Assembly: GCA_022842625.1 (NCBI GenBank)
Contig: JALHPG010000016.1
Location: forward strand, 1-47,556
Direction: 5' to 3'
Source: Bacteroidia bacterium
Lineage (GTDB): Bacteria; Bacteroidota; Bacteroidia; B-17B0; Aurantibacillaceae
Length of the DNA: 47,556 nt
The notes beneath the pieces are model-generated. The model did no database searches, was not told the DNA's origin, and saw only the letters and a program-made list of their open reading frames with translations. Position numbers and translations under genes: made by a program. Below are positions 13,355 to 29,885 of this stretch, one piece after another (the stretch's first letter is position 1; each line of letters begins with the position of its first letter).

Positions 13355-14815
13355 TTGCACCAAGTAAAAAAATATTTAAGCCTAGTAATAGTAGTTGTAC
13401 TTTTTCAACTTAAAGGGCTTTGTCAAAACATTGATTCGCTTAAAATAGCCCTTAAAAATGCAAAACACGATAGTTCAAAGTGTTTAACGTTAAAGTTATT
13501 ATATAAGACCGAGAATGATAATAACCTAAAGATGGAACTTGTTAAGCAACGGTTAAAGATTGCCGAATCAAACCTTCCAAACAAAAATCAAATTCTAAGT
13601 ATTTTTTTTCTAAAACAAAAAGCAGCTTCATTAAATAATATTGGGGCTATTTATTATAGCCAAAGCGATCTCTCTATGGCGATAGAATTTTTCAAAAAGA
13701 GTTTAAAAATTAGAGAAGAGATCGGTGATAAATCGGGAATAGCCAGTTCGCTGGGAAACATTGGCATTATATATAATGATCAAGGAGATATTACTAATGC
13801 ACTCGAGTATTATTATAAGAGTTTAAAGCTTCATGAGGAAATTGGTGATAAATCCGGTATAGCAAGTTCACTAACCAATATTGGGGGCGTTTATGAAAAC
13901 CAAGGCAACATAAATAAGGCGTTAGATTATTATTACAAGGGTTTAAAGATTTATAAACAAATTCAGGATAAAACCGGCATATCAAGTTTGTTATCTAATA
14001 TTGGGTTTATTTGTAACAAGCATGGCGATATTCCAAAGGCTTTAGAGTATTTTAGTAATAGTTTAAAGATTCAGGAGGAGATTGGTGACGATCTTGGAAT
14101 AGCAAATTCGTTAAATAACTTTGGTGATATTTATAGTTACAAAGGAGATATTCCTAAGGCATTAGAGTACTATAAAAAGAGTTTAAAGATTAGAGAAGAG
14201 ATTGAGGACAAAACCGGGATAGTTGAATCTTTGAATAAAATTTCTGATATAGCTTTAAAAAAAGGAAAAGTATCAGAAGCGTTTGTTTTATCAATTAGAG
14301 GGATACAATTAGCCAAAGAATTAGGGTTTCCCGAAAATATAAAGAACTCGGCAACAACCCTTAAAAAGATTTATCAAAAACAAAATAAATACAAAGAAGC
14401 ATTTGAAATGTATGAGTTGGAAATTAAGATGCGTGACAGTATTAATAATCAGGAAACGCAAAAAGCCGCCATTAAAAAACAGATGCAATACACTTACGAG
14501 AAAAAAGAATTAGAAACCAAAGCCGAGCAAGATAAAAAAGATGCCATTGCAAAAGCAGAATTAAAACAAAAAGAAAACGAACGTAATTATTTTATAGGTG
14601 GTTTTGGTTTAGTATTAGTACTCGCCTTATTTATTTTGCGTGGCTACAAACAAAAACAAAAAGCCAACGCAATTATTCTTGAACAAAAAAAATTCGTTGA
14701 CGAAAAGCAAAAAGAAATTCTAGATTCAATACATTACGCCAAACGTATTCAAACAGCATTATTGCCAAGCGAGAAATATATTGAGAAGAGTTTAAAACAA
14801 ATGAGAAAAAGTTAA
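13355..14815 (+). CDS. TPR receptor-like protein, unit U1
   Basis: 486 residues. There is no in-frame ATG or GTG at the right place; the frame most plausibly opens with TTG at 13355, followed by a signal peptide (YLSLVIVVVLFQLKGLCQ). The mature N-cap reads NIDSLKIALKNAKHD and then the KCLTLK...RLKIAESN type shared only with U7. Five good 40-residue TPRs (about residues 88-290; consensus SLxNIGxIYxxQGDIxKALEYY) are followed by two degenerate ones. One helix (about 413-430) leads into basic YKQKQK and a cytoplasmic tail DSIHYAKRIQTALLPSEKY. The topology would be periplasmic TPRs, a single helix and a short cytosolic stub. No kinase or phosphatase domain follows. TAA is directly followed by the ATG of the next ORF. 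Ligand and partner are unknown. Confidence 0.9.
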   Translation: MHQVKKYLSLVIVVVLFQLKGLCQNIDSLKIALKNAKHDSSKCLTLKLLYKTENDNNLKMELVKQRLKIAESNLPNKNQILSIFFLKQKAASLNNIGAIYYSQSDLSMAIEFFKKSLKIREEIGDKSGIASSLGNIGIIYNDQGDITNALEYYYKSLKLHEEIGDKSGIASSLTNIGGVYENQGNINKALDYYYKGLKIYKQIQDKTGISSLLSNIGFICNKHGDIPKALEYFSNSLKIQEEIGDDLGIANSLNNFGDIYSYKGDIPKALEYYKKSLKIREEIEDKTGIVESLNKISDIALKKGKVSEAFVLSIRGIQLAKELGFPENIKNSATTLKKIYQKQNKYKEAFEMYELEIKMRDSINNQETQKAAIKKQMQYTYEKKELETKAEQDKKDAIAKAELKQKENERNYFIGGFGLVLVLALFILRGYKQKQKANAIILEQKKFVDEKQKEILDSIHYAKRIQTALLPSEKYIEKSLKQMRKS

Positions 14816-16204
14816 ATGAGAAGGCTTATTAAATACCGTTTTCTTATTTGTATACTGCTCGTCACCCTGAGCGGAGTCGAGGGGCGTCTTTATTCTCAAA
14901 ATGCTAATGTTGAACCCAACCGAACCATCGACTCTTTAAAGTTGGCTCTTAAAAATGCTAAGCATGACACTACAAGAGCTCAAATTTTATATTTATGGGG
15001 CACCCAAATTTATTTAGAGCTGCCCGATACCGGAATAATTCTATTTCAAAATGTTGTAAAAATAGCAGAGGAAACTAAGAACAAATACAAAAAGTTTGGA
15101 ACAGAAAACAAAGCAATTCATTTATCCCAGGCAAATTCCCTCTCTAATATTGGTATTATTTACTTTAATAAGGGGGAAATTCCAAAAGCTTTAGAATATC
15201 ATAGCAAGAGTCTTAAAATACAAGAAGAGATTGGATATAAATCAGGAATCGCTAGTTGCCTGAGCAACTTAGGGAGTGTTTACAATTCCCAAGGTGATTT
15301 TTCCAAAGGTTTGGAATACTATAACAAAAGTTTAAAAATACAAGAAGAGGTTGGAGATAAACAAGGAATTGCAAATGCACTGAACAACATTGGGTATGTT
15401 TACTATAACCAAAAAAATATTCCAAAAGCTTTGGAATACTACAGCAAGAGTTCAAAAATATACGAAGAGACAGGAGATAGAAGAGGGTTAGCTGTTACCT
15501 TAAACAACTTTGCATCTATTTACTACGACCAAGGAGATATAACTAAAGCTTTGGAGTACTTTAGAATTAGTTTAAAAATACGTGAAGAGATTGGAGATAA
15601 ACAAGGAGCAGCCTATGCTATTCACAATATCGGTGTTATCTATTATAAACAAGATAATTTAAAAGAAGGTTTCATCTATGCCAAGCAAGGTATGGATATT
15701 GCTAAAGAAATAGGCTACCCCGAAAATATCAAAAAAGCAGCCAAACTGTTGAAACGAATCTTCCAAAAACAAAACAAATACAAAGAAGCTTTTGAAATGT
15801 ATGAGTTGGAAATTAAAATGCGTGACAGTATTAATAATCAGGAAACGCAAAAAGCCGCCATAAAAAAGCAAATGCAATACGCTTATGAGAAAAAAGAATT
15901 AGAAACCAAAGCAGAGCAAGATAAAAAGGATGCCATTGCAAACGCAGAATTAAAACAGAAAGAAAACGAACGTAATTATTTTATAGGAGGTTTTGGTTTA
16001 GTATTAGTACTCGCCTTATTTATTTTGCGTGGCTACAAACAAAAACAAAAAGCGAATGAAATTATTTTAGAACAAAAACATTTGGTTGACGAAAAACAAA
16101 AAGAGATACTTGATTCTATTCACTATGCCAAGCGCATACAAACTGCCTTATTGCCAAGCGAGAAATATATTGATAAAAGCCTCAACCAACTTAATAAGAA
16201 GATT
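14816..16204 (+). other. Unit U2 within the fused ORF
   Basis: 463 residues. The signal peptide contains a palindromic-repeat-derived stretch (VTLSGVEGRLYSQ), as in U8 and U10. The N-cap differs from all other units: after KHDTTRA it has ILYLWGTQIYLELPDTG. Four good TPRs and two degenerate ones follow. It is the only unit whose start is a normal ATG at the head of the fusion; its end has no stop codon and runs into the internal signal peptide of U3. Confidence 0.8.
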
Positions 16205-19200
16205 TTGTCTTGCCTCTTGTGTCTTTTATCTTTTGTCGCTTTTTCGCAAAATGTAGACTCATTAAAACTCGCTCTTAAAAAGGCAAAACATGACACTACG
16301 CGGTGTGATATTTTATCTGCTCTCTCAGAAACCGCTCCGGATGGAGAATGGGAGAACTATAATTCACAATTAAAAACTATAGCAGAAAATAAGGTCAAAA
16401 GTAATCCTTCGGAGAGAAAATTTTATTTGAAACACCTGGCGTCTGCTCTAAATAATTGTGGACTTATCTTTCATTATCAAGGTGACATCTCTAAGGCATT
16501 AGAATATTACCATAAGAGCTTAAAGATTCAGGAAGAGATTTTAGATAAAAAGGGAATTGCCTATTCTCTAAATAATATTGGCCTTGTTTATGATGAACAA
16601 GGAGATGTCACAAAAGCATTAGAGTACGCAATTAAAAGTTTAAAAATTCAACAAGAGATTGGCGAAAAAGATGGAATCGCATACTCTTTAAATAACATTG
16701 GTTATATATATCAATCACGAGGAAATTTCTCCAAAGGATTAGAATATTATTTTTTGAGTTTAAAAATTAGGGAGGAGATCGGCGACAAACGTGGCATCGC
16801 TGCTTCCTTAAATAATATAGGAGGTATTTATGATCAACACCTTCAGTTTTCAAAGGCTATTGAATATTATAAAAGAAGTCTAACAATTCAAGAGCATATG
16901 GGTGACAAGAAAGGACAAGCCCACTCTTTAAACAACCTCGCCGGTGTAACAAGTAGAAATGGCAATTTAAATGAAGCATGTGGTTTTGCAAAAAGAGGAA
17001 TGCAAATTGCCTTGGATTTAGGTTACCCTGAAAATATTAACAATTCTGCAACAACACTTAAGGTGATTTTTCAAAAACAAAATAAATACAAAGAAGCTTT
17101 TGAAATGTTTGAGCTGGAGACTAAAATGCGAGACAGTATCAATAACCAGGAAACTCAAAAAGCTGCCATAAAAAAACAAATGCAATATGAATACGAGAAA
17201 AAAGAATTAGAAACTAAAGCAGAGCAAGATAAAAAAGATGCTATTGCAAAAGCAGAATTAAAACAAAAAGAAAACGAACGGAATTATTTTATTGTTGGGT
17301 TTGGTTTAGTGCTAGTACTCGCCTTATTTATTTTACGTGGCTATAGACAAAAACAAAAAGCAAACGCTATCATTATTGAGCAGAAAAAATTAGTGGATGA
17401 AAAGCAAAAAGAGATACTGGATTCTATTCATTATGCAAAACGCATACAAACTGCCTTATTGCCGAGCGAGAAATATATTGATAAAAGCCTCAACCAACTT
17501 AATAAGAAGATTTTGTCTTGCCTCTTGTGTCTTTTATCTTTTGTCGCTTTTTCGCAAAATATAGATTCACTTAAAATTGCATTAAAAAACGCAAAGCACG
17601 ATACCACGCGTTGTAATATTTTATCATTATTAGCAGAGGATGGAAGTGATGAAGAGTGGATATTGTTTAACGAACAATTGTTTAATTTGGCTAAAAAGGG
17701 AGTTGCAGAATCAAAACCAAAATCACCGACAAATTATTTTTATTTAAAACATTTTGCAAATGCACTTAATAACAATGGTTTTTTATCTAAACAACAAGGC
17801 GATATTAATATGGCGCTAGACTATTTTGATCGTAGTTTGGCTATAAGACAAAAAATTAATGATAAAAATGGTATTGCATCTTCCTTTAATAATATTGGCT
17901 CAATTTATTCAAGCCGAGGTGATGTAATAAAAGGATTAGAGTTCAATAAAAAAAGTTTACGTATTTATGAAGAATTAAAAGATAAAAAGGGGATATCAAA
18001 TTCACTAAATAATATTGCTTTAATTTATTCTAATCAAGGAGATATTTTAAATTCCCTTGATTATTATCATCAGAGTTTAAAAATTGATGAATCAATTGGA
18101 AATAAAGAAGGTATTGCTTATTCCTTAAATAATATTGGAACAATTTATAAAAGCCAAGGTGATTATCCAAAGGCCTTAGATTATTATAAAAGGAGTTTAA
18201 AAATCCAAAAAGAAATTAAAAGAAAAGTTGGGATAGCTGCAACTGAAAATAATATTGGAAATATTTTTAATCTTCAAGGTAACCAAAAAAAAGCTTTAGA
18301 ATGCTTCAATAGAGCTTTAAAAATTTGTGAAGAAGCTAACGACAAACGAGGAATTGCAGCTACATTTAGTAATTTTGGAAGTCTTTATCACGACCAAGGG
18401 CAAATTTCCGAGGCATTAGAGTATTACCAAAAAAGTTTGGTCATTCGTGAGGAGATCAAGGATAAAAAAGGTATTGCCCGCTCTTTAAATAGTATAAGCG
18501 GTATTTTACTAAAACAAGAAAAAATATCAGAGGCATTTGTTTTAGCCACAAGAGCATTGAAAATAGGTAACGAATTAGGATTTCCTGAGAATATTAATAA
18601 AGCGGCTATTACACTCAAGCAAATCTTCAAAAAACAAAATAAATACAAAGAGGCCTTTGAAATGTATGAGTTAGAAATTAAAATGCGAGATAGTATTAAT
18701 AATCAGGAAACTCAAAAAGCCGCTATTAAAAAACAAATGCAATACACTTACGAGAAAAAAGAATTAGAAACAAAAGCAGAGCAGGATAAAAAAGACGCCA
18801 TTGCAAAAGCCGAGTTAAACCAAAAAGAAAATGAGCGAAATTATTTTATTGCAGGCTTTGGTTTAGTATTAGTATTGGCATTATTTATTTTGCGTGGCTA
18901 CAAACAAAAACAAAAAGCAAATGCAATTATTTTGGAGCAAAAACATTTGGTTGACGAAAAGCAGAAAGAAATTTTAGATTCTATTCATTACGCAAAGCGC
19001 ATACAAACTGCTTTATTACCAAGCGAGAAATATATTGATAAAAGCCTCAACCAACTTAATAAGAATATTTTGTCTTGCCTCTTGTGTCTTTTATCTTTTG
19101 TCGCTTTTTCGCAAAATATAGATTCACTTAAAATTGCGCTTAAAAACGCTAAGCATGACACTACTCGCTGTAATATTTTAAACGAGCTTATCGAGAACGA

Positions 19201-22054
19201 AAGTGACGACAATATTTGGTCAAAATATAATGAGCAATTAAAAACTATAGCCGAAAAAAATCTTAAGGAGGGAGGGAGGTACAAGCAAAAGTATTTAACT
19301 TATCTTGCCTCTGCCTTAAATAATATCGGATTCCTGTTTACCAATCAAGGGAATATTCCTAAAGCTTTAGAGTACTTTAAAAATAGTTTAAAAATTAGCG
19401 AGGAGATTGGCGATAAAAAAGGTAGCGCAGAGTCTTTAAATAATATTGGGATTGTTTACGATTTACAGGGTGATATACAAAATGCATTAGAATATTTTCA
19501 TAAGAGTTTGAAAATTCAGGAAGAAATGCTTAATAAACAAGGGGTTGCACTTGCATTAAATAACCTTGGATCTATCTATGACAGACAGGGGGAAATTGCT
19601 AAAGCAATTGAGTATTATCATAAGAGTTTGCAGGCTCGGTTGGAAATTGCTGATAAACATGGTATAGCACAATCCTTAGGTAACATCGGTTCTTTGTTTA
19701 GTAAGCAAGGTAATTTCCTTAAGGCGTTAGAGTATTATCAAAAGTGTTTAAAAATTTACGAAGAGGTGAGTGATAAACTTGGAATAGCAAATTCTTTAGT
19801 TAATATCGGTTCTACTTACAATGGAATGGGCAACACGGCAAAGGCAATAGAAGATTTTAATAAAAGTTTAAGTATTTATGAGGAGATCGGAAATAGAATC
19901 GGGGTGGCATTTTCACTTAATAATCTTGCAAGTGTAATGATTAATAATGACCAATTAAATAAAGCTTTTTTTTATGCAAATAAAAGTTTACAAACGGCTA
20001 AAGAAATTGGTTATCCTGATAGAATTAAAAATGCGGCCTTCTCTCTAAAAATTATATTTCAAAAACAAAACAAATACAAAGAGGCCTTTGAAATGTATGA
20101 GTTAGAAATTAAAATGCGAGATAGTATTAATAATCAGGAAACACAAAAGGCTACTATTAAAAAACAGATGCAATACACTTACGAGAAAAAAGAATTAGAA
20201 GCCAAAGCAGAACAAGATAAAAAAGATGCCATTGCAAAAGCAGAATTAAAACAAAAAGAAAACGAACGTAATTATTTTATTGCCGGCTTTGGTTTAGTAT
20301 TAGTACTCGCATTATTTATTTTGCGTGGCTACAAACAAAAGCAAAAAGCAAATGCAATTATTTTGGAGCAAAAACATTTGGTTGACGAGAAACAAAAAGA
20401 GATACTGGATTCTATTCACTATGCCAAGCGCATACAAACTGCTTTATTACCAAGCGAGAAATATATTGATAAAAGCCTTAACCAACTTAATAAGAATATT
20501 TTGTCTTGCCTCTTGTTACTTTTATCTTTTGTCGCTTTTTCGCAAAATGTAGACTCTCTAAAACTCGAACTTAAAAACTCGGCACTTGATAGCACGCGAT
20601 GCGCTATACTTACTGCGCTAATAGAAAATGAAACCGATGATGCTATTTGGCCGACCTATAACAAAGAGTTAAAAGCCATAAGTGAATTAAATTTAAAAAG
20701 GAACCAGGCTAATAAAAATATCTATTTAATTTATTTGTCAAGAGCTATTTATTATGAAGCTTATCTTGCAGAAATTAAGGGTCAAAATGAAAAAGCAATC
20801 GATCTTTATAAGGAAAGCATTGCCGTTAAAAAATCGCTTATGGATACAATGTCTATTAGTCTTACTTTAAATGATATCGCAGGAGTTTATAAAAAGATCG
20901 GCAATCCGTTCATGGCCGAGCAAGTATTTCACGAAGCTTTAAAACTTCAAGAAGCATCAAATGATGAATTGGGGTGTTCAGTAACATTAAACAATATTGG
21001 TAATTTAAACTATTATCAAGGTAACATACCATTGGCGCTCGAAAATTATTTTTTATGCCTCAAGAAACTCGAAAAGCTAAATGATCTTGAGAGAATAGCA
21101 ACAGCTATGAGTAATATTGCAATGATTTATCTTAAACAAGGTGATATCACAAAGGCTATTGAATTCAATGGAAAAAGCCTGACCTTGCGCGAAAAATTAA
21201 TGAACAAGCTTGGTATCGCTACATCGCTTAACAATTTTGGAGAGATTTATCAGAATCAGGGTAATATAGACAAAGCTTTAGACTATTTTGAACGAAGTTT
21301 AAAAATACGGAATGAAATTAATGATAAGCCTGGTGAGGCTCAGTGTTTGTTATTTATAGGGTCCGTATACAGAAAAAAAGGTGATATCTCTAAGGCATTA
21401 GAGTACGTATCTAAAAGTTTAAAGATAAGAGAAGAGATCAAAGATAAAAGTGAAATTAGCGCATCTTTAAATTACTTGGCCGGATTATTTATGGTTAAAG
21501 GAGAATTATCCGAAGCTCACAAAAACGGAAAGCGCAGTTTAGATCTGGCGTTAGAACTGGGATTTCCATTAAACATAATTGGTCCTGCTAAAATTTTAAA
21601 ACAGGTATTTCAAAAACAAAATAAATACAAAGAAGCATTTGAAATGTACGAGCTGGAGATTAAAATGAGAGATAGTATTAATAATCAAGAAACTCAAAAA
21701 GCAGTCATAAAAAAACAAATGCAATATACTTACGAGAAAAAAGAATTAGAAGCCAAAGCAGAACAGGATAAAAAAGATGCCATTGCAAAAGCAGAATTAA
21801 AACAAAAAGAAAACGAACGTAATTATTTTATTGTTGGTTTTAGTTTAGTGCTATTACTCGCCTTATTTATTTTGCGTGGCTACAAACAAAAGCAAAAAGC
21901 CAACGCAATTATTTTGGAGCAAAAACATTTGGTTGACGAAAAGCAGAAAGAAATTTTAGATTCTATTCATTACGCTAAACGCATACAAACTGCCTTATTA
22001 CCAAGCGAAAAGTATATTAACAAGAGTTTATCTCAATTAAATAAAAAAGGTTAG
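14816..22054 (+). CDS. Five TPR units (U2-U6) fused in frame; polyprotein-like ORF
   Basis: This single ORF of 2412 codons holds five complete receptor units: residues 1-463 (U2), 464-899 (U3), 900-1418 (U4), 1419-1895 (U5) and 1896-2412 (U6). Each has N-cap, TPRs (6, 6, 8, 7 and 8 including degenerate ones), coiled coil, helix and DSIHYAKRIQ tail. Where stop and start codons stand between other units, the four junctions read LNQLNK[K/N]ILSCLLxLLSFVAFSQN, a textbook signal peptide with basic n-region, leucine-rich core and S-Q cleavage site. The chain could therefore re-enter the membrane and be cut by signal peptidase I into five mature proteins. Alternatively the TTG in each junction (16205, 17513, 19070, 20501) could start separate proteins. 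It starts 0 bp after the U1 stop (TAAATG). An assembly error in near-identical repeats is possible but would not create the signal peptides. Confidence 0.88.
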   Translation: MRRLIKYRFLICILLVTLSGVEGRLYSQNANVEPNRTIDSLKLALKNAKHDTTRAQILYLWGTQIYLELPDTGIILFQNVVKIAEETKNKYKKFGTENKAIHLSQANSLSNIGIIYFNKGEIPKALEYHSKSLKIQEEIGYKSGIASCLSNLGSVYNSQGDFSKGLEYYNKSLKIQEEVGDKQGIANALNNIGYVYYNQKNIPKALEYYSKSSKIYEETGDRRGLAVTLNNFASIYYDQGDITKALEYFRISLKIREEIGDKQGAAYAIHNIGVIYYKQDNLKEGFIYAKQGMDIAKEIGYPENIKKAAKLLKRIFQKQNKYKEAFEMYELEIKMRDSINNQETQKAAIKKQMQYAYEKKELETKAEQDKKDAIANAELKQKENERNYFIGGFGLVLVLALFILRGYKQKQKANEIILEQKHLVDEKQKEILDSIHYAKRIQTALLPSEKYIDKSLNQLNKKILSCLLCLLSFVAFSQNVDSLKLALKKAKHDTTRCDILSALSETAPDGEWENYNSQLKTIAENKVKSNPSERKFYLKHLASALNNCGLIFHYQGDISKALEYYHKSLKIQEEILDKKGIAYSLNNIGLVYDEQGDVTKALEYAIKSLKIQQEIGEKDGIAYSLNNIGYIYQSRGNFSKGLEYYFLSLKIREEIGDKRGIAASLNNIGGIYDQHLQFSKAIEYYKRSLTIQEHMGDKKGQAHSLNNLAGVTSRNGNLNEACGFAKRGMQIALDLGYPENINNSATTLKVIFQKQNKYKEAFEMFELETKMRDSINNQETQKAAIKKQMQYEYEKKELETKAEQDKKDAIAKAELKQKENERNYFIVGFGLVLVLALFILRGYRQKQKANAIIIEQKKLVDEKQKEILDSIHYAKRIQTALLPSEKYIDKSLNQLNKKILSCLLCLLSFVAFSQNIDSLKIALKNAKHDTTRCNILSLLAEDGSDEEWILFNEQLFNLAKKGVAESKPKSPTNYFYLKHFANALNNNGFLSKQQGDINMALDYFDRSLAIRQKINDKNGIASSFNNIGSIYSSRGDVIKGLEFNKKSLRIYEELKDKKGISNSLNNIALIYSNQGDILNSLDYYHQSLKIDESIGNKEGIAYSLNNIGTIYKSQGDYPKALDYYKRSLKIQKEIKRKVGIAATENNIGNIFNLQGNQKKALECFNRALKICEEANDKRGIAATFSNFGSLYHDQGQISEALEYYQKSLVIREEIKDKKGIARSLNSISGILLKQEKISEAFVLATRALKIGNELGFPENINKAAITLKQIFKKQNKYKEAFEMYELEIKMRDSINNQETQKAAIKKQMQYTYEKKELETKAEQDKKDAIAKAELNQKENERNYFIAGFGLVLVLALFILRGYKQKQKANAIILEQKHLVDEKQKEILDSIHYAKRIQTALLPSEKYIDKSLNQLNKNILSCLLCLLSFVAFSQNIDSLKIALKNAKHDTTRCNILNELIENESDDNIWSKYNEQLKTIAEKNLKEGGRYKQKYLTYLASALNNIGFLFTNQGNIPKALEYFKNSLKISEEIGDKKGSAESLNNIGIVYDLQGDIQNALEYFHKSLKIQEEMLNKQGVALALNNLGSIYDRQGEIAKAIEYYHKSLQARLEIADKHGIAQSLGNIGSLFSKQGNFLKALEYYQKCLKIYEEVSDKLGIANSLVNIGSTYNGMGNTAKAIEDFNKSLSIYEEIGNRIGVAFSLNNLASVMINNDQLNKAFFYANKSLQTAKEIGYPDRIKNAAFSLKIIFQKQNKYKEAFEMYELEIKMRDSINNQETQKATIKKQMQYTYEKKELEAKAEQDKKDAIAKAELKQKENERNYFIAGFGLVLVLALFILRGYKQKQKANAIILEQKHLVDEKQKEILDSIHYAKRIQTALLPSEKYIDKSLNQLNKNILSCLLLLLSFVAFSQNVDSLKLELKNSALDSTRCAILTALIENETDDAIWPTYNKELKAISELNLKRNQANKNIYLIYLSRAIYYEAYLAEIKGQNEKAIDLYKESIAVKKSLMDTMSISLTLNDIAGVYKKIGNPFMAEQVFHEALKLQEASNDELGCSVTLNNIGNLNYYQGNIPLALENYFLCLKKLEKLNDLERIATAMSNIAMIYLKQGDITKAIEFNGKSLTLREKLMNKLGIATSLNNFGEIYQNQGNIDKALDYFERSLKIRNEINDKPGEAQCLLFIGSVYRKKGDISKALEYVSKSLKIREEIKDKSEISASLNYLAGLFMVKGELSEAHKNGKRSLDLALELGFPLNIIGPAKILKQVFQKQNKYKEAFEMYELEIKMRDSINNQETQKAVIKKQMQYTYEKKELEAKAEQDKKDAIAKAELKQKENERNYFIVGFSLVLLLALFILRGYKQKQKANAIILEQKHLVDEKQKEILDSIHYAKRIQTALLPSEKYINKSLSQLNKKG
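14861..14886 (+). repeat. Palindromic dispersed-repeat-like element inside the U2 signal peptide
   Basis: The core CCCTGAGCGGAGTCGA is followed by GGGGCG and has imperfect dyad symmetry (CCCT...AGGG in the other copies). It lies in frame and encodes VTLSGVEGR between the hydrophobic core and the cleavage site. The same 26-bp element recurs in U8 and U10 and nowhere else in the window. From memory, similar sequences are scattered in many Bacteroidota genomes; I could not check this. Confidence 0.6.
16205..17512 (+). other. Unit U3 within the fused ORF, with internal signal peptide
   Basis: About 436 residues, the shortest unit. It opens with the internal signal peptide SCLLCLLSFVAFSQN (core at 16208-16252), after a TTG at 16205 and the basic NKK of the U2 tail. 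The N-cap is of the EW type (APDGEWENYNSQLK). Four good TPRs and two degenerate ones follow. One change in the otherwise constant block is MFELETKMRDS instead of MYELEIKMRDS. Confidence 0.78.
17513..19069 (+). other. Unit U4 within the fused ORF, with internal signal peptide
   Basis: About 519 residues. The internal signal peptide is the same as in U3. The N-cap is EW-type (GSDEEWILFNEQL). Six good TPRs and two degenerate ones follow. The TPRs are among the most divergent in the array (for example IKRKVGIAATENNIGNIF), while the C-terminal block stays constant. Confidence 0.78.
19070..20500 (+). other. Unit U5 within the fused ORF, with internal signal peptide
   Basis: About 477 residues. The junction has AAG-AAT-ATT-TTG (N instead of K before the core) and otherwise the same signal peptide. 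The N-cap is of the IW type (ESDDNIWSKYNEQLK). Five good TPRs and two degenerate ones follow. Its C-terminal block shares the U6-type ELEAKAEQ variant, a sign of exchange between neighbours. Confidence 0.78.
20501..22054 (+). other. Unit U6, last unit of the fused ORF
   Basis: About 517 residues. The internal signal peptide has SCLLLLLSFVAFSQN, one Cys fewer than its siblings. The N-cap is IW-type (ETDDAIWPTYNKELK). Six TPRs, the first two poorly conserved, and two degenerate ones follow. It ends with a true stop (NKKG, TAG at 22052), 14 bp before the TTG start of U7. Confidence 0.78.
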
Positions 22055-22068
22055 TTTAGTAAAACAAT

Positions 22069-23535
22069 TTGAAACCAATATTTAAATATCTATTATTAAG
22101 CCTGGCAGTTTTTTTGTTTCAGCTCAATTCTATTGGGCAAGATAAAACCATTGACTCTTTAAAGCTGGCACTTAAAAACGCTACGCATGATAGTACAAAA
22201 TGTTTAACATTGAAGATTTTATGTAAACTGGAAAAAGATTACGACCTAAAAATGAAACTTGCAATGCAAAGGTTAACAATTGCAGAATCGCATCTTACCG
22301 ATCCCGATAAAGCAATTCGTGTTTTTTTTCTAAAGCAAAAATCCTCATCTCTAAACACTATAGGACTTATATATTCTGATAAGTTTGAGATTCCAATGGC
22401 CTTAGAGTGTTATTACAAGAGTTTCGAGATCGATGAGAGTATTGGTGATAAGAAAGGAATGGCAACGTCTTTTAACAACATTGGCCGCGTTTATTACAAC
22501 CTTGGTGATATTGCAAAGGTGCTCGAATATTGGCACAAGGCCTTAAAGATAAGAGAAGAGATGAGTGATAAAAAAGGCATTGGAAGCAGTTTAAGCAATC
22601 TTGCGGCCATTTATCTTGTTCAAGGAGATAAACACAAGGCTTTCGAGTATGAGAATAGAAGTATCAAAATTAAATCAGAACTGGGCGATTTGATCGGAGT
22701 TGCCCATTCTTTAAATAATTTAGGAATAATGTATCGAGAACAAGGAAACTTGCCCAAATCATTAGAGTGCCATGAAAAAAGTTTAAAAATAAAAGAGGAG
22801 ATCGGAGATTATCAATCAATGCCTGAATCGTTAAATAACCTCGGTGAATTTTATATTAAACAAGGTGACTTTGAAAAGGGCTTAGATTTTCATTTCCGGG
22901 GTTTGAAAATTTGTGAAGAGATCAATGATAAAAATGCGATGACTTTAACTCTAACAGATATATGTCTTTCTTATTCGTCTCAAGGTAAGCTTAACGAGGC
23001 TTTTAATTATGGCAATAGAAGTTTGAAAATTGCTAAAGATCTTGGTTTTCCTCAATCTATTGCAAACGCTGCCTACGCTTTAAAATCAGTTTATAAAAAA
23101 CAAAACAAATACAAAGAGGCCTTTGAAATGTATGAGTTAGAAATTAAAATGCGCGACAGTGTAAATAATCAGGAAACTCAAAAGGCTACAGTCAAAAAAC
23201 AAATGCAATATGCCTACGAGAAAAAAGAATTAGAAACTAAAGCAGAACAGGATAAAAAAGATGCCATTGCAAAAGCAGAATTAAACCAGAAAGAAAACGA
23301 GCGTAATTATTTTATTGCAGGCTTTGGTTTAGTGCTAGTACTCGCCTTATTTATTTTACGTGGCTATAAACAAAAACAAAAAGCCAACGCAATTATTCTC
23401 GAACAAAAGGAACTGGTTGACGAGAAACAAAAAGAAATTCTCGATTCTATCCATTACGCAAAGCGTATTCAAACTGCCTTATTGCCTAACGAAAAGTATA
23501 TTGATAGGAGTTTAAAGCAACTGAATAAAAGTTAA
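22069..23535 (+). CDS. TPR receptor-like protein, unit U7
   Basis: 488 residues from a probable TTG start at 22069 (LKPIFKYLLLSLAVFLFQLNSIGQ as signal peptide). No ATG fits. Its N-cap (KCLTLKILCKLEKDYDLKMKL, then RLTIAESH and FFLKQKSSSLN) is homologous to U1 only, and both use TTG, so the two are a sub-lineage placed at both ends of the fused ORF. Five good TPRs (about residues 90-290) and two degenerate ones precede the constant block; the helix is near residues 414-431. The stop overlaps the next start (TAATG, 23533-23537), which suggests translational coupling to U8. It has no output domain. Confidence 0.9.
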   Translation: MKPIFKYLLLSLAVFLFQLNSIGQDKTIDSLKLALKNATHDSTKCLTLKILCKLEKDYDLKMKLAMQRLTIAESHLTDPDKAIRVFFLKQKSSSLNTIGLIYSDKFEIPMALECYYKSFEIDESIGDKKGMATSFNNIGRVYYNLGDIAKVLEYWHKALKIREEMSDKKGIGSSLSNLAAIYLVQGDKHKAFEYENRSIKIKSELGDLIGVAHSLNNLGIMYREQGNLPKSLECHEKSLKIKEEIGDYQSMPESLNNLGEFYIKQGDFEKGLDFHFRGLKICEEINDKNAMTLTLTDICLSYSSQGKLNEAFNYGNRSLKIAKDLGFPQSIANAAYALKSVYKKQNKYKEAFEMYELEIKMRDSVNNQETQKATVKKQMQYAYEKKELETKAEQDKKDAIAKAELNQKENERNYFIAGFGLVLVLALFILRGYKQKQKANAIILEQKELVDEKQKEILDSIHYAKRIQTALLPNEKYIDRSLKQLNKS

Positions 23536-25121
23536 TGAGAAAATTATTAAAATACCGTTTTCTTTTTTTTATTCTTTTCGTCACCCTGAGCGGAGTCGAA
23601 GGGCGTATTATTGCACAAAATTTAGACTCTCTAAAACTTGTTCTTAAAAATGCACACCATGATACAACGCGCTGTAATATTCTTTCAGTTCTTGCAGAAA
23701 CCGCGGGCGATGAGGAATGGCCAGCTTTTAATGAGGAGTTAAAAAATCTCGCCGAAAAAAATCTTGCCAGCAATACTGCTTATAAAAAATTTTATTTAAA
23801 ACACTTAGCCTCTGCTCTCAATAATATAGGGTTTTTAGCGAGCAGCCAGAGCGAAATACAAAAGGCGCTAGAGTTTTTTGATAAAAGTTTAAAGATCAGT
23901 TCAGAGATTGGGGATAAAGAAGGGATTGGAACCACATTAAACAATTTTGGGGTTTTATTTGGTTCCCAAGGTAACATCCCAATGGCGTTAGAATATTACC
24001 ACAAAAGTTTGAAAATTCATGAGGAGATAGGTGATAAAAGTGGGATAGCGAATGCTTTAAACAACATTGGCATCAATTATAAAAAACAAGGCGACATTTC
24101 CAAGGCATTGGACTACTATCACAGGAGTTTAAAAATAAGTGAGGAGATAGATAGCAAGCCAAGAATAGCAACTGCTTTAAATAACATTGGTGTTATTTAT
24201 GAAAAACAAGGAGATGTAACAAAGGCCTTAGACTATTATAACAAGAGTTTAAAATTTTGTGATGAAATGGGTAATAAAAAGGGAATTGCAAAAGCATTAA
24301 ATAATATTGCACACATATATAGTAATCAAGACAGCACAGAAAAAGCATTGGAGTATAATCAAAAAAGTTTAAATATTTATGAAGAAATTGGGGATAAAGC
24401 CGGGATAGCAAATTCTTTAAACAACATTGGCAGTATTTATCAAAACAAAGGTTATATGCCTAAAGCATTTGGATATTTTCAAAAGAGTTTAAAAATCCAG
24501 GAAGAAATTGGGGATAAACAAGGAATAGCATATTCTTTAAACAACATAGCCAATTCCTTAATTAAAAATGGGAAAATAGCTGAAGCACTTGTTTTTGCTG
24601 ATAAGGGGATGCAAACTTCCAAAGAAATTGGCTATGCCGAAAATATTATGATGGCAGCCGGCACTCTCAAATCAATATTCAAAAAACAAAACAAATACAA
24701 AGAAGCTTTTGAGATGTATGAGTTAGAAATTAAAATGCGAGATAGTATTAATAATCAAGAAACTCAAAAAGCCGCTATTAAAAAACAAATGCAATATACT
24801 TACGAGAAAAAAGAATTAGAAACAAAAGCAGAGCAGGATAAAAAAGACGCCATTGCTAAGGCGGAATTAAAACAAAAAGAAAACGAGCGTAATTATTTTA
24901 TTGCAGGCTTTGGTTTAGTATTAGTATTGGCATTATTTATTTTACGTGGCTACAAACAAAAACAAAAAGCAAACGCAATTATTTTACAACAAAAACATTT
25001 GGTTGACGAAAAACAAAAAGAAATTCTCGATTCTATCCATTACGCAAAGCGTATTCAAACTGCCTTATTGCCTAACGAAAAGTATATTGATAGGAGTTTA
25101 AAGCAACTGAATAAAAGTTAA
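23535..25121 (+). CDS. TPR receptor-like protein, unit U8
   Basis: 528 residues. It starts at the ATG that overlaps the U7 stop. The signal peptide carries the palindromic element (VTLSGVEGRIIAQN). The N-cap is EW-type (AGDEEWPAFNEELK). Six regular TPRs of 40 residues and two degenerate ones follow; several have the pure consensus SLNNIGSIYQNKG / EEIGDKQGIA. The constant C-terminal block gives coiled coil, helix and stub. The U8 and U10 blocks share IILQQKHLVDEKQ where most units have ILEQK, pointing to conversion or duplication between them. TAA is directly followed by the ATG of U9. Confidence 0.91.
   Translation: MRKLLKYRFLFFILFVTLSGVEGRIIAQNLDSLKLVLKNAHHDTTRCNILSVLAETAGDEEWPAFNEELKNLAEKNLASNTAYKKFYLKHLASALNNIGFLASSQSEIQKALEFFDKSLKISSEIGDKEGIGTTLNNFGVLFGSQGNIPMALEYYHKSLKIHEEIGDKSGIANALNNIGINYKKQGDISKALDYYHRSLKISEEIDSKPRIATALNNIGVIYEKQGDVTKALDYYNKSLKFCDEMGNKKGIAKALNNIAHIYSNQDSTEKALEYNQKSLNIYEEIGDKAGIANSLNNIGSIYQNKGYMPKAFGYFQKSLKIQEEIGDKQGIAYSLNNIANSLIKNGKIAEALVFADKGMQTSKEIGYAENIMMAAGTLKSIFKKQNKYKEAFEMYELEIKMRDSINNQETQKAAIKKQMQYTYEKKELETKAEQDKKDAIAKAELKQKENERNYFIAGFGLVLVLALFILRGYKQKQKANAIILQQKHLVDEKQKEILDSIHYAKRIQTALLPNEKYIDRSLKQLNKS
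23580..23605 (+). repeat. Palindromic dispersed-repeat-like element inside the U8 signal peptide
   Basis: This copy (core CCCTGAGCGGAGTCGA, then AGGGCG) is in the same reading frame and at the same place in the signal peptide as in U2 and U10. The flanking DNA upstream (AAATACCGTTTTCT) is also shared. Confidence 0.62.
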
Positions 25122-26723
25122 ATGAGAAAATATTTTATACATATAATTCTTAATTTAACATTTTTAATTTTTAATTCATTTTGCTTTTCGCAAAATTCTA
25201 GTGGTGAGTCTAGTCGAACCATCGACTCTCTAAAACTAGCTCTTAAAAACGCTAAGCACGATACTACACGGTGTCATATTTTATACGCAATAATCGAAGT
25301 GGAGGGTGATGATAATATTTGGCCTCAATACAATGAACAATTAAAACAAGTTGCACAAAAGAATATTGCCAATAATTCAGCGCCTAAAAATTTTTACTTA
25401 AAGCAACTTGCTGATGCCTTGAATAACTTTGGGTACTTGGCAAATCAAAAAGGTGACTTGCAAAAAGCGTTGGAGTATCATCAAAAGAGTTTAAAAATTA
25501 GGGAAGAGATTGGAGATAAACAAGGAATAGCAGGCTCTTTAGACAACATTGGGTTTATCTATTACAGCCAAGGTGACATCTCAAAGGCAGAGGAGTCTTA
25601 TAGCAAGAGTTTAATAATCCTGGAAGAAGTTGGGGATAAAAAAGGAATATCAGAGTCTTTAAACAACCTTGGATTTATTTTTAAAGACCAAGGTGATATC
25701 CCAAAAGCATTGGAGTATTATCATAAAAGTTTAAAGTTTAGAGAAGAGATTGGAGATAAAAAAGGGATAGCAATTTCATTAAACAATATTGGACTTATTT
25801 ATAATAGCCAAGGTGATATTCCAAAAGCGTTGGAGTGCCAACACAAGAGTTTAAAGATAAGAGAAGAGATTGGTGATAAGCGGGGAATAGCAGAGTCTTT
25901 AAATAATATTGGCTTTTTTTATAACAGTCAGGGGAGTACCCAAAAGGCGTTGGAGTACCACCGCAAAAGTTTAAAGATCAGAGAAGATATTGATGATAAA
26001 CGAGGAATAGCAAATTCATTAGACAATATCGGTTCAATTTATGACAGCCAAGGCGACATCCATAAGGCGTTGGGGTATCTGCTAAAGAGTTTAAGCATAT
26101 ATGAGGAGATTGGAGATAGACCTGGAATCGCAGGTACTTTATATAATATTGCTGTTTTGACTTTAAGAAAAGGACAAGTGCAAGAGGCTTTCGTGTTTGC
26201 TAGCAAGGGAATGCAAGTTGCTAAAGAATTAGGCTTTCCTGAAAATATTAAGAACTCTGCGAATACGCTTAAGTCAATATTCAAAAAACAAAATAAATAC
26301 AAAGAGGCCTTTGAAATGTATGAGTTAGAAATTAAAATGCGAGATAGTATTAATAATCAAGAAACTCAAAAAGCCTCTATTAAAAAACAAATGCAATACA
26401 CTTACGAGAAAAAAGAATTAGAAACCAAAGCAGAGCAAGATAAAAAAGATGCCATTGCAAAAGCCGAGTTAAACCAAAAAGAAAATGAGAGAAATTATTT
26501 TATAGCAGGTTTTGGTTTAGTTTTAGTTCTTGCATTATTTATTTTGCGCGGCTATAAACAAAAACAAAAAGCGAATGTAATTATTGCAGCTCAAAAACAT
26601 TTGGTAGAGGAAAAGCAAAAAGAAATTCTAGATTCCATTCATTATGCAAAACGCATACAAACTGCATTGTTGCCGAATGAAAAATATATTGATAAGAGTT
26701 TGAAGCAATTGAATAAAAGTTAA
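25122..26723 (+). CDS. TPR receptor-like protein, unit U9
   Basis: 533 residues with an ordinary signal peptide (FIHIILNLTFLIFNSFCFSQ) found in no other unit. A short insert SSGESSRT before IDSLKLALKNAKHDTTRC resembles the one in U2 (NVEPNRT). The N-cap is IW-type (GDDNIWPQYNEQLK). Six very regular TPRs follow, most with EEIGDK in the turn, which suggests recent internal duplication of 120-bp units, then two degenerate ones. The tail block has IIAAQKHLVEEKQ, shared in part with U11. The stop is directly followed by the ATG of U10. Confidence 0.91.
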   Translation: MRKYFIHIILNLTFLIFNSFCFSQNSSGESSRTIDSLKLALKNAKHDTTRCHILYAIIEVEGDDNIWPQYNEQLKQVAQKNIANNSAPKNFYLKQLADALNNFGYLANQKGDLQKALEYHQKSLKIREEIGDKQGIAGSLDNIGFIYYSQGDISKAEESYSKSLIILEEVGDKKGISESLNNLGFIFKDQGDIPKALEYYHKSLKFREEIGDKKGIAISLNNIGLIYNSQGDIPKALECQHKSLKIREEIGDKRGIAESLNNIGFFYNSQGSTQKALEYHRKSLKIREDIDDKRGIANSLDNIGSIYDSQGDIHKALGYLLKSLSIYEEIGDRPGIAGTLYNIAVLTLRKGQVQEAFVFASKGMQVAKELGFPENIKNSANTLKSIFKKQNKYKEAFEMYELEIKMRDSINNQETQKASIKKQMQYTYEKKELETKAEQDKKDAIAKAELNQKENERNYFIAGFGLVLVLALFILRGYKQKQKANVIIAAQKHLVEEKQKEILDSIHYAKRIQTALLPNEKYIDKSLKQLNKS

Positions 26724-29700
26724 ATGAGAAAATTTTTAAAATACCGTTTTCTGATTTTTATTCTACTCGTCACCCTGAGCGGAGTCGAAGGGCGTCTTTA
26801 TTCACAAAATGTAGACTCCCTAAAACTTGCGCTAAAAAATGCAAAGCATGACACAACCCGTTGTAATGTTTTGTCTATGCTTGTTGCAACGGCAAGTGTT
26901 GAAGAATGGCCTAAATTTAATGAACAGCTACTAAATCTATGTGAAAGTAAAATAAAGTTAACTCAAAGATCTAGTTCAGAAAATAAAGTTTATTTAGTGC
27001 GTTATGCCGAAGCGTTAAATACCATTGGGGTTATTTATGCCGATAAAGGAGACTTCCCAAAAGGATTAGAGTGCAATTTCAAGAGTTTAAAAATTTGGGA
27101 AGAGCTAGGAAATAAAATAGGAATAGCCAAATCCATGCTTAACATTGCAACTATTTACTATAATCAAGGAGATATTCCTGAAGCATTAGAGTATCATTTC
27201 AAGAGTTTAAAAATAAAAGAAGAAGTTGGGAGTAAAAAGGACATAGCAAAATCATTAAATAACATTGCTGTAATTTATGATAACCAAGGAGACATATCCA
27301 AAGCATTAGAGTATCATAGTAAAAGTTTAAAATTAAGAGAAGAGATAGGTGATAATAGTGGAATAGCCTTATCTCTTAACAATATTGGATTTATATACAA
27401 TAATCAGGGAGATGTATCTAAAGCTTTAGAGTATTTTAAGGAAAGTTTAAAAATTCAGGAAAAAAACGGAATTAAAATGGGAATTGCCATTTCACTTAAC
27501 AACATTGGGGTAATTTACAAAAATCATGGCGAGTATACCAAAGCTCTGGAATACCTTTTAAAGAGTTTAAAAATTGGCGAAGAGATAGGTGATAAAATAG
27601 GAGTAGCATCTTCACTTAAAAATATTGGGATAATTTACGAGAATCAAGGAGATATTCAAAAAGCTATGGGATACTATAGCAGGAGTCTAAAAATTGGAGA
27701 AGAGATAGGTTACAAACGGGGTGTAGCTGTTTCTTTATGCAGCATCGGTTATCTTTATTATAAACTAGGTAATTTAAAAGAAGGACTCGCTTATACAACT
27801 AGAGCGTTAAATACTTCTAAAGAATTAGGTTATCCTGAAAATATTAGAAGCTCAGCCGCCACGCTAAAACAAATCTATCAAAAGCAAAACAAATTCACAG
27901 AGGCTTTTGAAATGTATGAGTTAGAAATTAAAATGCGCGACAGTATTAATAATCAAGAAACTCAAAAAGCCGCTATTAAAAAACAAATGCAATACACTTA
28001 CGAGAAAAAAGAATTAGAAACTAAAGCAGAGCAAGATAAAAAAGATGCCATTGCTAAGGCGGAATTAAAACAAAAAGAAAACGAGCGTAATTATTTTATT
28101 GCAGGCTTTGGTTTAGTATTAGTATTGGCATTATTTATTTTACGTGGCTATAAACAAAAACAAAAAGCAAACGCAATTATTTTACAACAAAAACATTTGG
28201 TAGATGAAAAACAAAAAGAAATTCTCGATTCCATTCATTACGCTAAACGTATACAAACTGCTTTATTACCAAACGAAAAGTATATTGATAAAAGCCTCAA
28301 TCAACTTAATAAGAAGATTTTGTCTTTCATCTTGTGTCTTTTTTCTTTTGTCTCTTTTTCGCAAAATATAGACTCTTTAAAACTTGCTCTTAAAAATGCC
28401 AAGCATGATACAACGAGGTGCATTTTGCATAATACTTTAGGTGAAGTTATGTTTTATGATAATATGGATTCCTCGGTAGTATATTGGAATAAAGCTATAG
28501 AAATTGCAGAAAGGCATTTGAAATCAGGTTCCGATTCTAAAGTGGTTTTAAAAACAATTAAGACTTACTATTCTGTAGCTTTAAATAATCTGGGAGTTTT
28601 ATATCAGGGCAATGGTGATTTTAAAAAGGCCTTGGATTATAATCAAAGGAGTTTAAAGGTATGCACAGAGCTGGGAGATAAATTGGGTATGGCTTATGCA
28701 ATAAATAATATTGGGAGTCTTTACCAGGATAAAGGTGATGTGGAGAATGCAATTACTTACTCGCAAAAAGCTTATAAATTATATGAAGAACTTGGCGATA
28801 AAGAAGGTATGTCCATTACATTGGGTAATATAGGGAGCCTTTATATTAAGCAAGGCGATATTCTTATGGCATTGGAAATTAATCACCGCAGCTTAAAAAT
28901 TTGTGAAGAGCTGGGTGATAAATTAAGTATGTCCTATGCTCTGAATAATCTGGGCTCTATTCAGCTAATGCAGGGTAATTTAGATAAGTCTTTAGAATAT
29001 TTGCAGAGAAGTTTAAAACTTCGCGAAGAACTTGGCGATAAAAAGGGGATTGCTTCCTCTTTTCACAATATAGCTGAGATTTATAATAGAGAAGGAAGAA
29101 TACCTAAGGCTATAGAATTTCATCAGAAAAGTTTAAAAATTCGGGAAGAAATTGGAGATAAATTGGGTATGACAACAAGCTTAACAAATTTAGGGATAAT
29201 GTATGGTTTTCTGGACGACAATAAGAAGGCATTAGCGTATTTGTATCAGAGCTTGAAAATTTGTGAAGAAGTTGGAATTAAAGACGGCGTGGGTTCGGCA
29301 TCAAATCTTGTTGCAAAATATTTGACAAAAGAAGGTAACATACAAAAAGCCTTGCCGTACGCATTTAAAGGCTTTGAAATAGCAAAAGAAGTAGGGTATC
29401 CGGAAAGTATAAAAGCTTCGGCCAATACACTTAAAAACATTTTTCTAAAACAAAACAAATACAAAGAAGCTTTTGAGATGTATGAGTTAGAAATTAAAAT
29501 GCGAGATAGTATTAATAATCAAGAAACTCAAAAAGCTGCCATAAAAAAGCAAATGCAATATACTTACGAGAAAAAAGAATTAGAAACTAAAGCAGAGCAA
29601 GATAAAAAAGATGCCATTGCAAAAGCAGAATTAAACCAAAAAGAAAATGAGCGAAATTATTTTATTGCAGGTTTCGGTTTAGTGTTAATACTTGCCTTGT

Positions 29701-29885
29701 TTATTTTACGTGGCTACAAACAAAAACAAAAGGCTAATGAAATAATTGCAGCTCAAAAACATTTGGTAGATGAAAAACAAAAAGAAATTCTAGATTCAAT
29801 ACATTACGCTAAACGCATACAAACGGCTTTATTACCAAGCGAAAAGTATATTGATAAGAGTTTGAATCAGTTGAATAAAAGCTAA
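26724..29885 (+). CDS. Two TPR units (U10-U11) fused in frame
   Basis: 1053 codons. U10 covers residues 1-532 and U11 residues 533-1053. U10 has the palindromic-element signal peptide and EW-type N-cap (SVEEWPKFNEQL), with six good and two degenerate TPRs. The junction at about 28311-28370 (NKKILSFILCLFSFVSFSQN) is a slightly diverged form of the internal signal peptides in the larger fusion. U11 has a different N-cap (RCILHNTLGEVMFYDNMDSSVVYW) and the most TPRs of the array (seven good and two degenerate). Both have the constant helix and tail block. It starts 0 bp after the U9 stop and ends 2 bp before the SRAP gene. The reading as a polyprotein or as two start sites is the same question as for U2-U6. 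Confidence 0.88.
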   Translation: MRKFLKYRFLIFILLVTLSGVEGRLYSQNVDSLKLALKNAKHDTTRCNVLSMLVATASVEEWPKFNEQLLNLCESKIKLTQRSSSENKVYLVRYAEALNTIGVIYADKGDFPKGLECNFKSLKIWEELGNKIGIAKSMLNIATIYYNQGDIPEALEYHFKSLKIKEEVGSKKDIAKSLNNIAVIYDNQGDISKALEYHSKSLKLREEIGDNSGIALSLNNIGFIYNNQGDVSKALEYFKESLKIQEKNGIKMGIAISLNNIGVIYKNHGEYTKALEYLLKSLKIGEEIGDKIGVASSLKNIGIIYENQGDIQKAMGYYSRSLKIGEEIGYKRGVAVSLCSIGYLYYKLGNLKEGLAYTTRALNTSKELGYPENIRSSAATLKQIYQKQNKFTEAFEMYELEIKMRDSINNQETQKAAIKKQMQYTYEKKELETKAEQDKKDAIAKAELKQKENERNYFIAGFGLVLVLALFILRGYKQKQKANAIILQQKHLVDEKQKEILDSIHYAKRIQTALLPNEKYIDKSLNQLNKKILSFILCLFSFVSFSQNIDSLKLALKNAKHDTTRCILHNTLGEVMFYDNMDSSVVYWNKAIEIAERHLKSGSDSKVVLKTIKTYYSVALNNLGVLYQGNGDFKKALDYNQRSLKVCTELGDKLGMAYAINNIGSLYQDKGDVENAITYSQKAYKLYEELGDKEGMSITLGNIGSLYIKQGDILMALEINHRSLKICEELGDKLSMSYALNNLGSIQLMQGNLDKSLEYLQRSLKLREELGDKKGIASSFHNIAEIYNREGRIPKAIEFHQKSLKIREEIGDKLGMTTSLTNLGIMYGFLDDNKKALAYLYQSLKICEEVGIKDGVGSASNLVAKYLTKEGNIQKALPYAFKGFEIAKEVGYPESIKASANTLKNIFLKQNKYKEAFEMYELEIKMRDSINNQETQKAAIKKQMQYTYEKKELETKAEQDKKDAIAKAELNQKENERNYFIAGFGLVLILALFILRGYKQKQKANEIIAAQKHLVDEKQKEILDSIHYAKRIQTALLPSEKYIDKSLNQLNKS
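26769..26794 (+). repeat. Palindromic dispersed-repeat-like element inside the U10 signal peptide
   Basis: Third copy of the 26-bp element, identical over its full length to the U8 copy as far as I can read and again in frame as VTLSGVEGR. It lies 46 bp after the ATG, as in U2 and U8. Confidence 0.62.
28320..29885 (+). other. Unit U11 within the second fused ORF, with internal signal peptide
   Basis: About 521 residues. It begins at a TTG (28320) inside the junction, followed by SFILCLFSFVSFSQN as signal-peptide core and cleavage region. Its TPR turns favour EELGDK over the EEIGDK of other units, so its TPR block has a separate history although its last 438 bp match the array. Confidence 0.78.

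Follow-up and report, generated by a model that had tools for sequence, protein, structure and literature searches.

Structure of the receptor array

The reading frame at 26724-29885, in which two membrane receptors stand head to tail, raises the question of whether it encodes a real fusion, where its junction came from, and what holds that junction open. The ORF starts with ATG and was recovered just as the original prediction had described it. It belongs to a row of eleven head-to-tail units (U1-U11) that occupies 13355-29885 of the window, i.e., the whole 47,556-nucleotide stretch analyzed, in six ORFs (Table 1). Five of the eleven units are joined in frame to their upstream neighbor, namely U3-U6 in the first fused ORF and U11 in the second. 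The units follow one plan, in which the signal peptide is followed by several TPRs in a row, a C-module of 124 codons, and about 14-16 further residues. The C-module itself is made up of a coil, one transmembrane helix, and a coil ending in KRIQTALLP.

Table 1. Positions of the units in the window and of the parts of the U10-U11 fusion.
Feature	Positions	Strand	Evidence
Free unit U1	13355..14815	+	
First fused ORF, U2-U6, 2412 aa; internal signal peptides begin at 16199, 17507, 19064, and 20495	14816..22054	+	
Free unit U7	22069..23535	+	
Free unit U8	23535..25121	+	
Free unit U9, whose stop is directly followed by the U10 start (TAAATG)	25122..26723	+	
Fused ORF U10-U11, 1053 aa, two receptor units in a single frame	26724..29885	+	ORF listing, AlphaFold2 model
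N-terminal signal peptide of U10, MRKFLKYRFLIFILLVTLSGVEGRLYS followed by QN; cut expected before Q28	26724..26804	+	Sequence, hydropathy
Dispersed repeat GTCACCCTGAGCGGAGTCGAAGGG, in frame within the U10 signal peptide	26769..26792	+	Genome copy count
U10 TPR region, predicted extracytoplasmic	26811..27899	+	Pfam TPR families; pLDDT mostly 75-94
U10 C-module: coil, transmembrane helix 28092-28142, cytoplasmic coil ending KEILDSIHYAKRIQTALLP	27900..28271	+	
Linker NEKYIDKSLNQLNK, end of U10, at the position of the stop in free units	28272..28313	+	
Internal signal peptide of U11, KILSFILCLFSFVSFS followed by QN; predicted to be cut by signal peptidase I before Q (28362)	28314..28367	+	
U11 TPR region	28368..29465	+	Pfam TPR families; AlphaFold2
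U11 C-module, transmembrane helix 29658-29708	29466..29837	+	Hydropathy

Both U10 and U11 are complete, each with a signal peptide, a TPR solenoid, a transmembrane helix, and a cytoplasmic coil, and their in-frame joint is SLNQLNKKILSFILCLFSFVSFS followed by QN. As in a bacterial polyprotein, at least two complete proteins are encoded in an uninterrupted ORF. The U10-U11 junction reads ...NEKYIDKSLNQLNKKILSFILCLFSFVSFSQNIDSLK, while the other four junctions of the window read ...K/N-ILSCLLCLLSFVAFSQN, one of them with LLLL instead of LLCL. The AlphaFold2 model of U10-U11 (mean pLDDT 74.9) contained two confident TPR solenoids, each followed by a helix of about 123 residues, with low confidence at the junction itself. 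Foldseek matches in the PDB were generic TPR solenoids such as LGN. A defense system was rejected for this locus, as PADLOC returned only generic TPR matches and one weak match to a candidate system.

The signal peptides of U2, U8, and U10 each contain the repeat GTCACCCTGAGCGGAGTCGAAGGG in frame (the first two copies at 14861-14884 and 23580-23603), which adds VTLSGVEGR to them, and two of these three units head fused ORFs. Its core occurred in 17 copies genome-wide and in 0 in the reversed control.

Relation to TPR-SpoIIE receptors

The alignment of U9 with TPR-TM-coil-SpoIIE proteins of the genus, at 47-49% identity, runs from residues 1-16 to 527 (of 533). It includes the coil that enters the phosphatase domain and stops within 6 residues of the end of U9. 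The signal peptide, TPR domain, transmembrane helix, and coil of TPR-SpoIIE receptors were all found in the units, while the C-terminal SpoIIE/PP2C phosphatase (PF07228) had no match in U9, U2-U6, or U10-U11. Unit ends of this phosphatase-less kind reach 10-21 residues past LLP, with the SpoIIE domain absent. The terminal unit of the homologous array carries SpoIIE in two relatives (G018 and G020). Given the U9 alignment, the absence of PF07228, and these end units with phosphatase, the units look like receptors that have retained the coil and are missing the output domain.

The TPR-SpoIIE (PP2C/PPM) membrane phosphatases of Bacteroidota have the same layout up to the phosphatase domain but end in SpoIIE, which the window units lack, and some of the latter are fused to each other. 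The nearest named phosphatase was SiaA (NCBIfam NF038263, sub-threshold). TPR histidine kinases like FimS (NCBIfam NF053520) are alike in their TPR-coil-TM layout at a sub-threshold 128 bits against a cut-off of 600, but carry a kinase domain, of which the window units have none. In RsbU-type PPM phosphatases, the coiled-coil linker dimerizes and switches the enzyme (PMC12143880). The C-module ends at the linker position that dimerizes and activates the phosphatase domains in RsbU/RsbP (PMC12143880), whereas in the array this linker is anchored in the membrane and has no phosphatase behind it. We infer that the units act as catalytically empty partners or competitors of the many SpoIIE receptors, pairing with the intact ones via the shared coil. 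The window's genome encodes 45 SpoIIE (PF07228) domains, several of them on TPR receptors; for 4.1 Mb, this amounts to an unusually expanded phosphatase signaling network.

A junction block shared by all fusions

The U10-U11 joint had been proposed as a second, independent-looking fusion, and this part of the original prediction had to be abandoned. A 96-nt block consisting of linker and signal peptide is common to all five window junctions (16157-16252, 17465-17560, 19022-19117, 20453-20548, and 28272-28367). Its identity is 94-100% among junctions 1-4 and 87-92% between the U10-U11 junction and those four. Identity drops to 70% in some C-module bins just upstream and lies at 57-73% over the 75 nt that follow, with 61-66% between the sequence following the U10-U11 junction and that following the other four. 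The block recurs at 90% on another contig of the window's genome (C12), and the U10-U11 block is homologous to the junctions of this contig and of four other species. Because the cassette is shared, an independent origin of the five window junctions was dropped. By this pattern of identity, all five are copies of one cassette, of which four were recently homogenized. The U10-U11 copy is older and does not represent an independent fusion. The near-identical block at four sites with diverged flanks may reflect gene conversion with sharp edges or a constraint at the DNA level.

U10 and U8 differ by a pS of 0.28 in their C-modules and of 0.68 in their TPR regions, while the U10 TPR region is 84.6% identical (aa) to that of a stand-alone unit of G018. 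Since the U10 C-module is near U8, its TPRs are near the G018 unit, and the 96-nt block is shared, the array is a mosaic with gene conversion. This recombining array diversifies the sensing TPR part and homogenizes the membrane and coil part, as expected if different sensors must pair through one shared interface.

The fusions might also be a by-product of array recombination, tolerated without a role, in which the frame is kept solely for want of a start codon in the downstream unit. The concerted evolution of the U10 and U8 C-modules relative to their TPRs, the four nearly identical junction blocks between diverged flanks, and the coexistence of fused and free units in one array agree with such an origin. 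Taken alone, it leaves unexplained the Q at +1, the small residues at -3 and -1, and the fusion at the same locus in five species, and we consider it unlikely. Recombination by-product and cleavage can, however, be compatible.

Selection on the junctions

In-frame fused junctions were found in 5 of the 40 species genomes of the genus and number 12, of which six lie in the window's genome (five in the window) and six in four relatives. A stop or frameshift inside the fused junction was found in none of the 12. The window's genome is a draft assembly (4.09 Mb, 229 contigs), in which sequencing or assembly error could have removed stop codons. However, the 12 junctions come from five separately assembled genomes, some of 20-30 contigs, and have ordinary codon substitution patterns. 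The relatives' junctions thus uphold the earlier argument against error as the whole explanation, and leave error with a negligible probability.

The diverged U10-U11 junction has indeed kept its frame and signal-peptide features, which had been taken to suggest selection. Selection was borne out by the interspecies data, while the argument from drift without a stop was too weak alone within the window. There, the proposed contrast of synonymous and nonsynonymous change yielded 4-7 nonsynonymous and 0 synonymous differences between U10-U11 and the other four, which is compatible with neutrality. After eight random substitutions, the 96-nt junction would still be free of stops 65% of the time, so an open frame after such drift is unsurprising by itself.

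The comparison with related genomes, also proposed at the outset, gave a different result, and the in-frame junctions of five genomes combined a signal-peptide omega of 0.19-0.27 with a conserved cleavage pattern. The maximum-likelihood omega of the signal peptide was 0.265 for all 12 junctions and 0.193 for the seven outside the window, with omega = 1 rejected at 2dlnL of 17.3 and 19.0, respectively. Linker and signal peptide together gave 0.13, and the pooled interspecies dN/dS in the signal peptide was 0.29. All 12 junctions are open and hydrophobic (h-region KD 2.36-2.84). A short h-region and small residues at -3 and -1 each occurred in 12/12 junctions and Q at +1 in 11/12, the exception being G006.j1. 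A simulation of neutral drift (0.5 substitutions per site, star tree, majority ancestor) gave P=0.01 for one lineage to keep everything; the lineages themselves are not independent. Purifying selection acts on the junction. Selection for no more than translation and export of the downstream units would also keep the frame and a hydrophobic segment, since those units are without a start of their own.

Stops or frameshifts at this junction in relatives had been named as the sign of neutral decay, and this was half found. The U10 orthologue of the close relative G018 ends at a stop and is followed by a gene with a different signal peptide, and the same locus there has no fused genes, but the array is arranged differently; it is not a decayed junction. 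In two other relatives (G025 and G007), the fused gene is shared over its full length (72% aa over 961), yet the two junctions differ by one codon and in many residues with no feature lost.

Probable export and cleavage of the fused chains

We assign a probability of roughly 55% to a real fusion of tandem paralogous receptors in which the junction is under purifying selection and the internal signal peptides would act in export and are probably cut. The first signal peptide would export TPR domain 1, the C-module helix would stop the transfer, and the coil would remain cytoplasmic. The internal signal peptide, with a lysine-rich linker ahead of it, would then re-enter the Sec translocon and restart export for TPR domain 2. 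Cutting at the internal site by signal peptidase I would yield separate receptors in a fixed proportion, i.e., in equal amounts, and on the upstream receptor the internal signal peptide would remain as a second, short anchor in the membrane. This topology and cleavage we infer from sequence.

The internal signal peptide of U11 (h-region KD 2.56) has S at both -3 and -1 and Q at +1. The small-x-small-Q pattern was present at 90 of 113 (about 80%) sampled unit N-termini, mostly of free units, and the window's genome encodes homologues of signal peptidase I as well as a plant-type glutaminyl cyclase. Q at +1 is the Q-rule of Bacteroidetes signal peptidases (PMC5837995, PMC10653852), for which the pyroglutamate evidence does not cover inner-membrane proteins. 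Cutting would be the most likely outcome, given that the site for signal peptidase I in the internal peptide follows this rule, and it best explains why the rule is kept at internal sites.

A polytopic receptor that is never cut would have the internal signal peptide as a second transmembrane helix, and its two (or five) extracytoplasmic TPR domains would sit on membrane hairpins, oligomerized in cis. The succession of an out-to-in transmembrane helix, a lysine-rich linker, and an in-to-out segment suits this topology, and the segment is hydrophobic enough. Nevertheless, the hydrophobic cores still have signal-peptide length (15 residues by hydropathy in the internal signal peptide vs 17 in the true transmembrane helix), and the cleavage residues at -3, -1, and +1, needless for an uncut helix, are kept in nearly all lineages, which makes such a receptor improbable.

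Separate synthesis of the second unit by internal initiation at a TTG near the junction is far less probable still, as the junctions show no conservation of start codons. An in-frame TTG does open the hydrophobic block in the window, on contig C12, and in G020, but no n-region contains an in-frame ATG, G007 has no ATG, GTG, or TTG, and G006.j1 has only one, deep in the h-region. Starting at the window's TTG would also produce a signal peptide without positive charge, and the upstream unit would still be without a stop.

A further reading, which we consider less likely than not, is a cell-encoded tandem polyprotein in which up to five paralogous receptors without phosphatase would be made as one chain, threaded through the membrane by the internal signal peptides, and cut by signal peptidase I into a fixed set of ligand-binding partners, in a genome that has 45 SpoIIE-domain genes. 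Polyproteins processed by signal peptidase are commonplace in animal viruses and, to our knowledge, very rare among bacterial genes. FbcH of Bradyrhizobium japonicum is a prokaryotic polyprotein precursor (cytochrome b/c1) cut by signal peptidase, and likewise has a single bacterial ORF with two membrane proteins and an internal signal peptide. FbcH joins two different subunits once, whereas the receptors of the array are paralogues, chained up to five in a row, and their cutting is predicted. A literature search on bacterial polyproteins, internal signal peptides, and TPR-SpoIIE receptors found no direct precedent. Whether bacterial polyproteins fix receptor stoichiometry is now directly testable.

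Origin and distribution of the fused form

Among 185 distinct unit ends in the loci examined, 164 stop within 45 residues, mostly 10-18 after LLP. The free units of G018, G061, and G006 are set apart by a stop, a spacer of about 150 nt with the palindrome TTCTGCCNNNGGCAGAA, and a start. Those of G018 and G061 have the same signal-peptide lineage as the fused junctions, and the next signal peptide after the spacer can read MWLKKYCLSCILFLLSFVSFSQ or MCFKKNYPSCVFCLLSFVSFSQ, where fused junctions read ...QLNK-KILSCILCLLSFVSFSQ. This comparison suggests that an ancestral array of separate units lost stop, spacer, and start at some of its junctions. The probable route is an in-frame deletion between the A-rich ends (AATAAA and TTAAAAAAA). 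In two junctions there is one codon more than in the rest, which may represent a second event or an in-frame indel.

The palindrome TTCTGCCNNNGGCAGAAT, with a varying loop, was present in spacers between free units of relatives, in four loci (L039 at 7146 and 8918, L040 at 6413, L089 at 509, 2086, and 3669, and L090 at 8665) and, in those relatives' genomes, was found solely at these arrays. It is possibly an RNA hairpin or a recombination element.

A class-wide search of 395 genomes with a junction profile found fused junctions in the window's genome alone, and a contig scan returned, among the matches listed, nothing beyond the known G020 copy. The nearest named relatives among the matches listed were Bacteroidota metagenome bins. 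The species tree from locus genes is poorly resolved, and the fused form has either one origin with loss in G018 or several fusions behind it. Fused receptors are known so far from five species of one genus and are a variant of TPR-SpoIIE receptors and of the rare bacterial polyproteins.

The homologous array adjoins a restriction-modification gene of MmeI type in G020 (L041 2478-5222) and a DNA-methylase-like gene in G007 (L045 4807-6510), and these neighbors suggest that the array locus takes up mobile genes.
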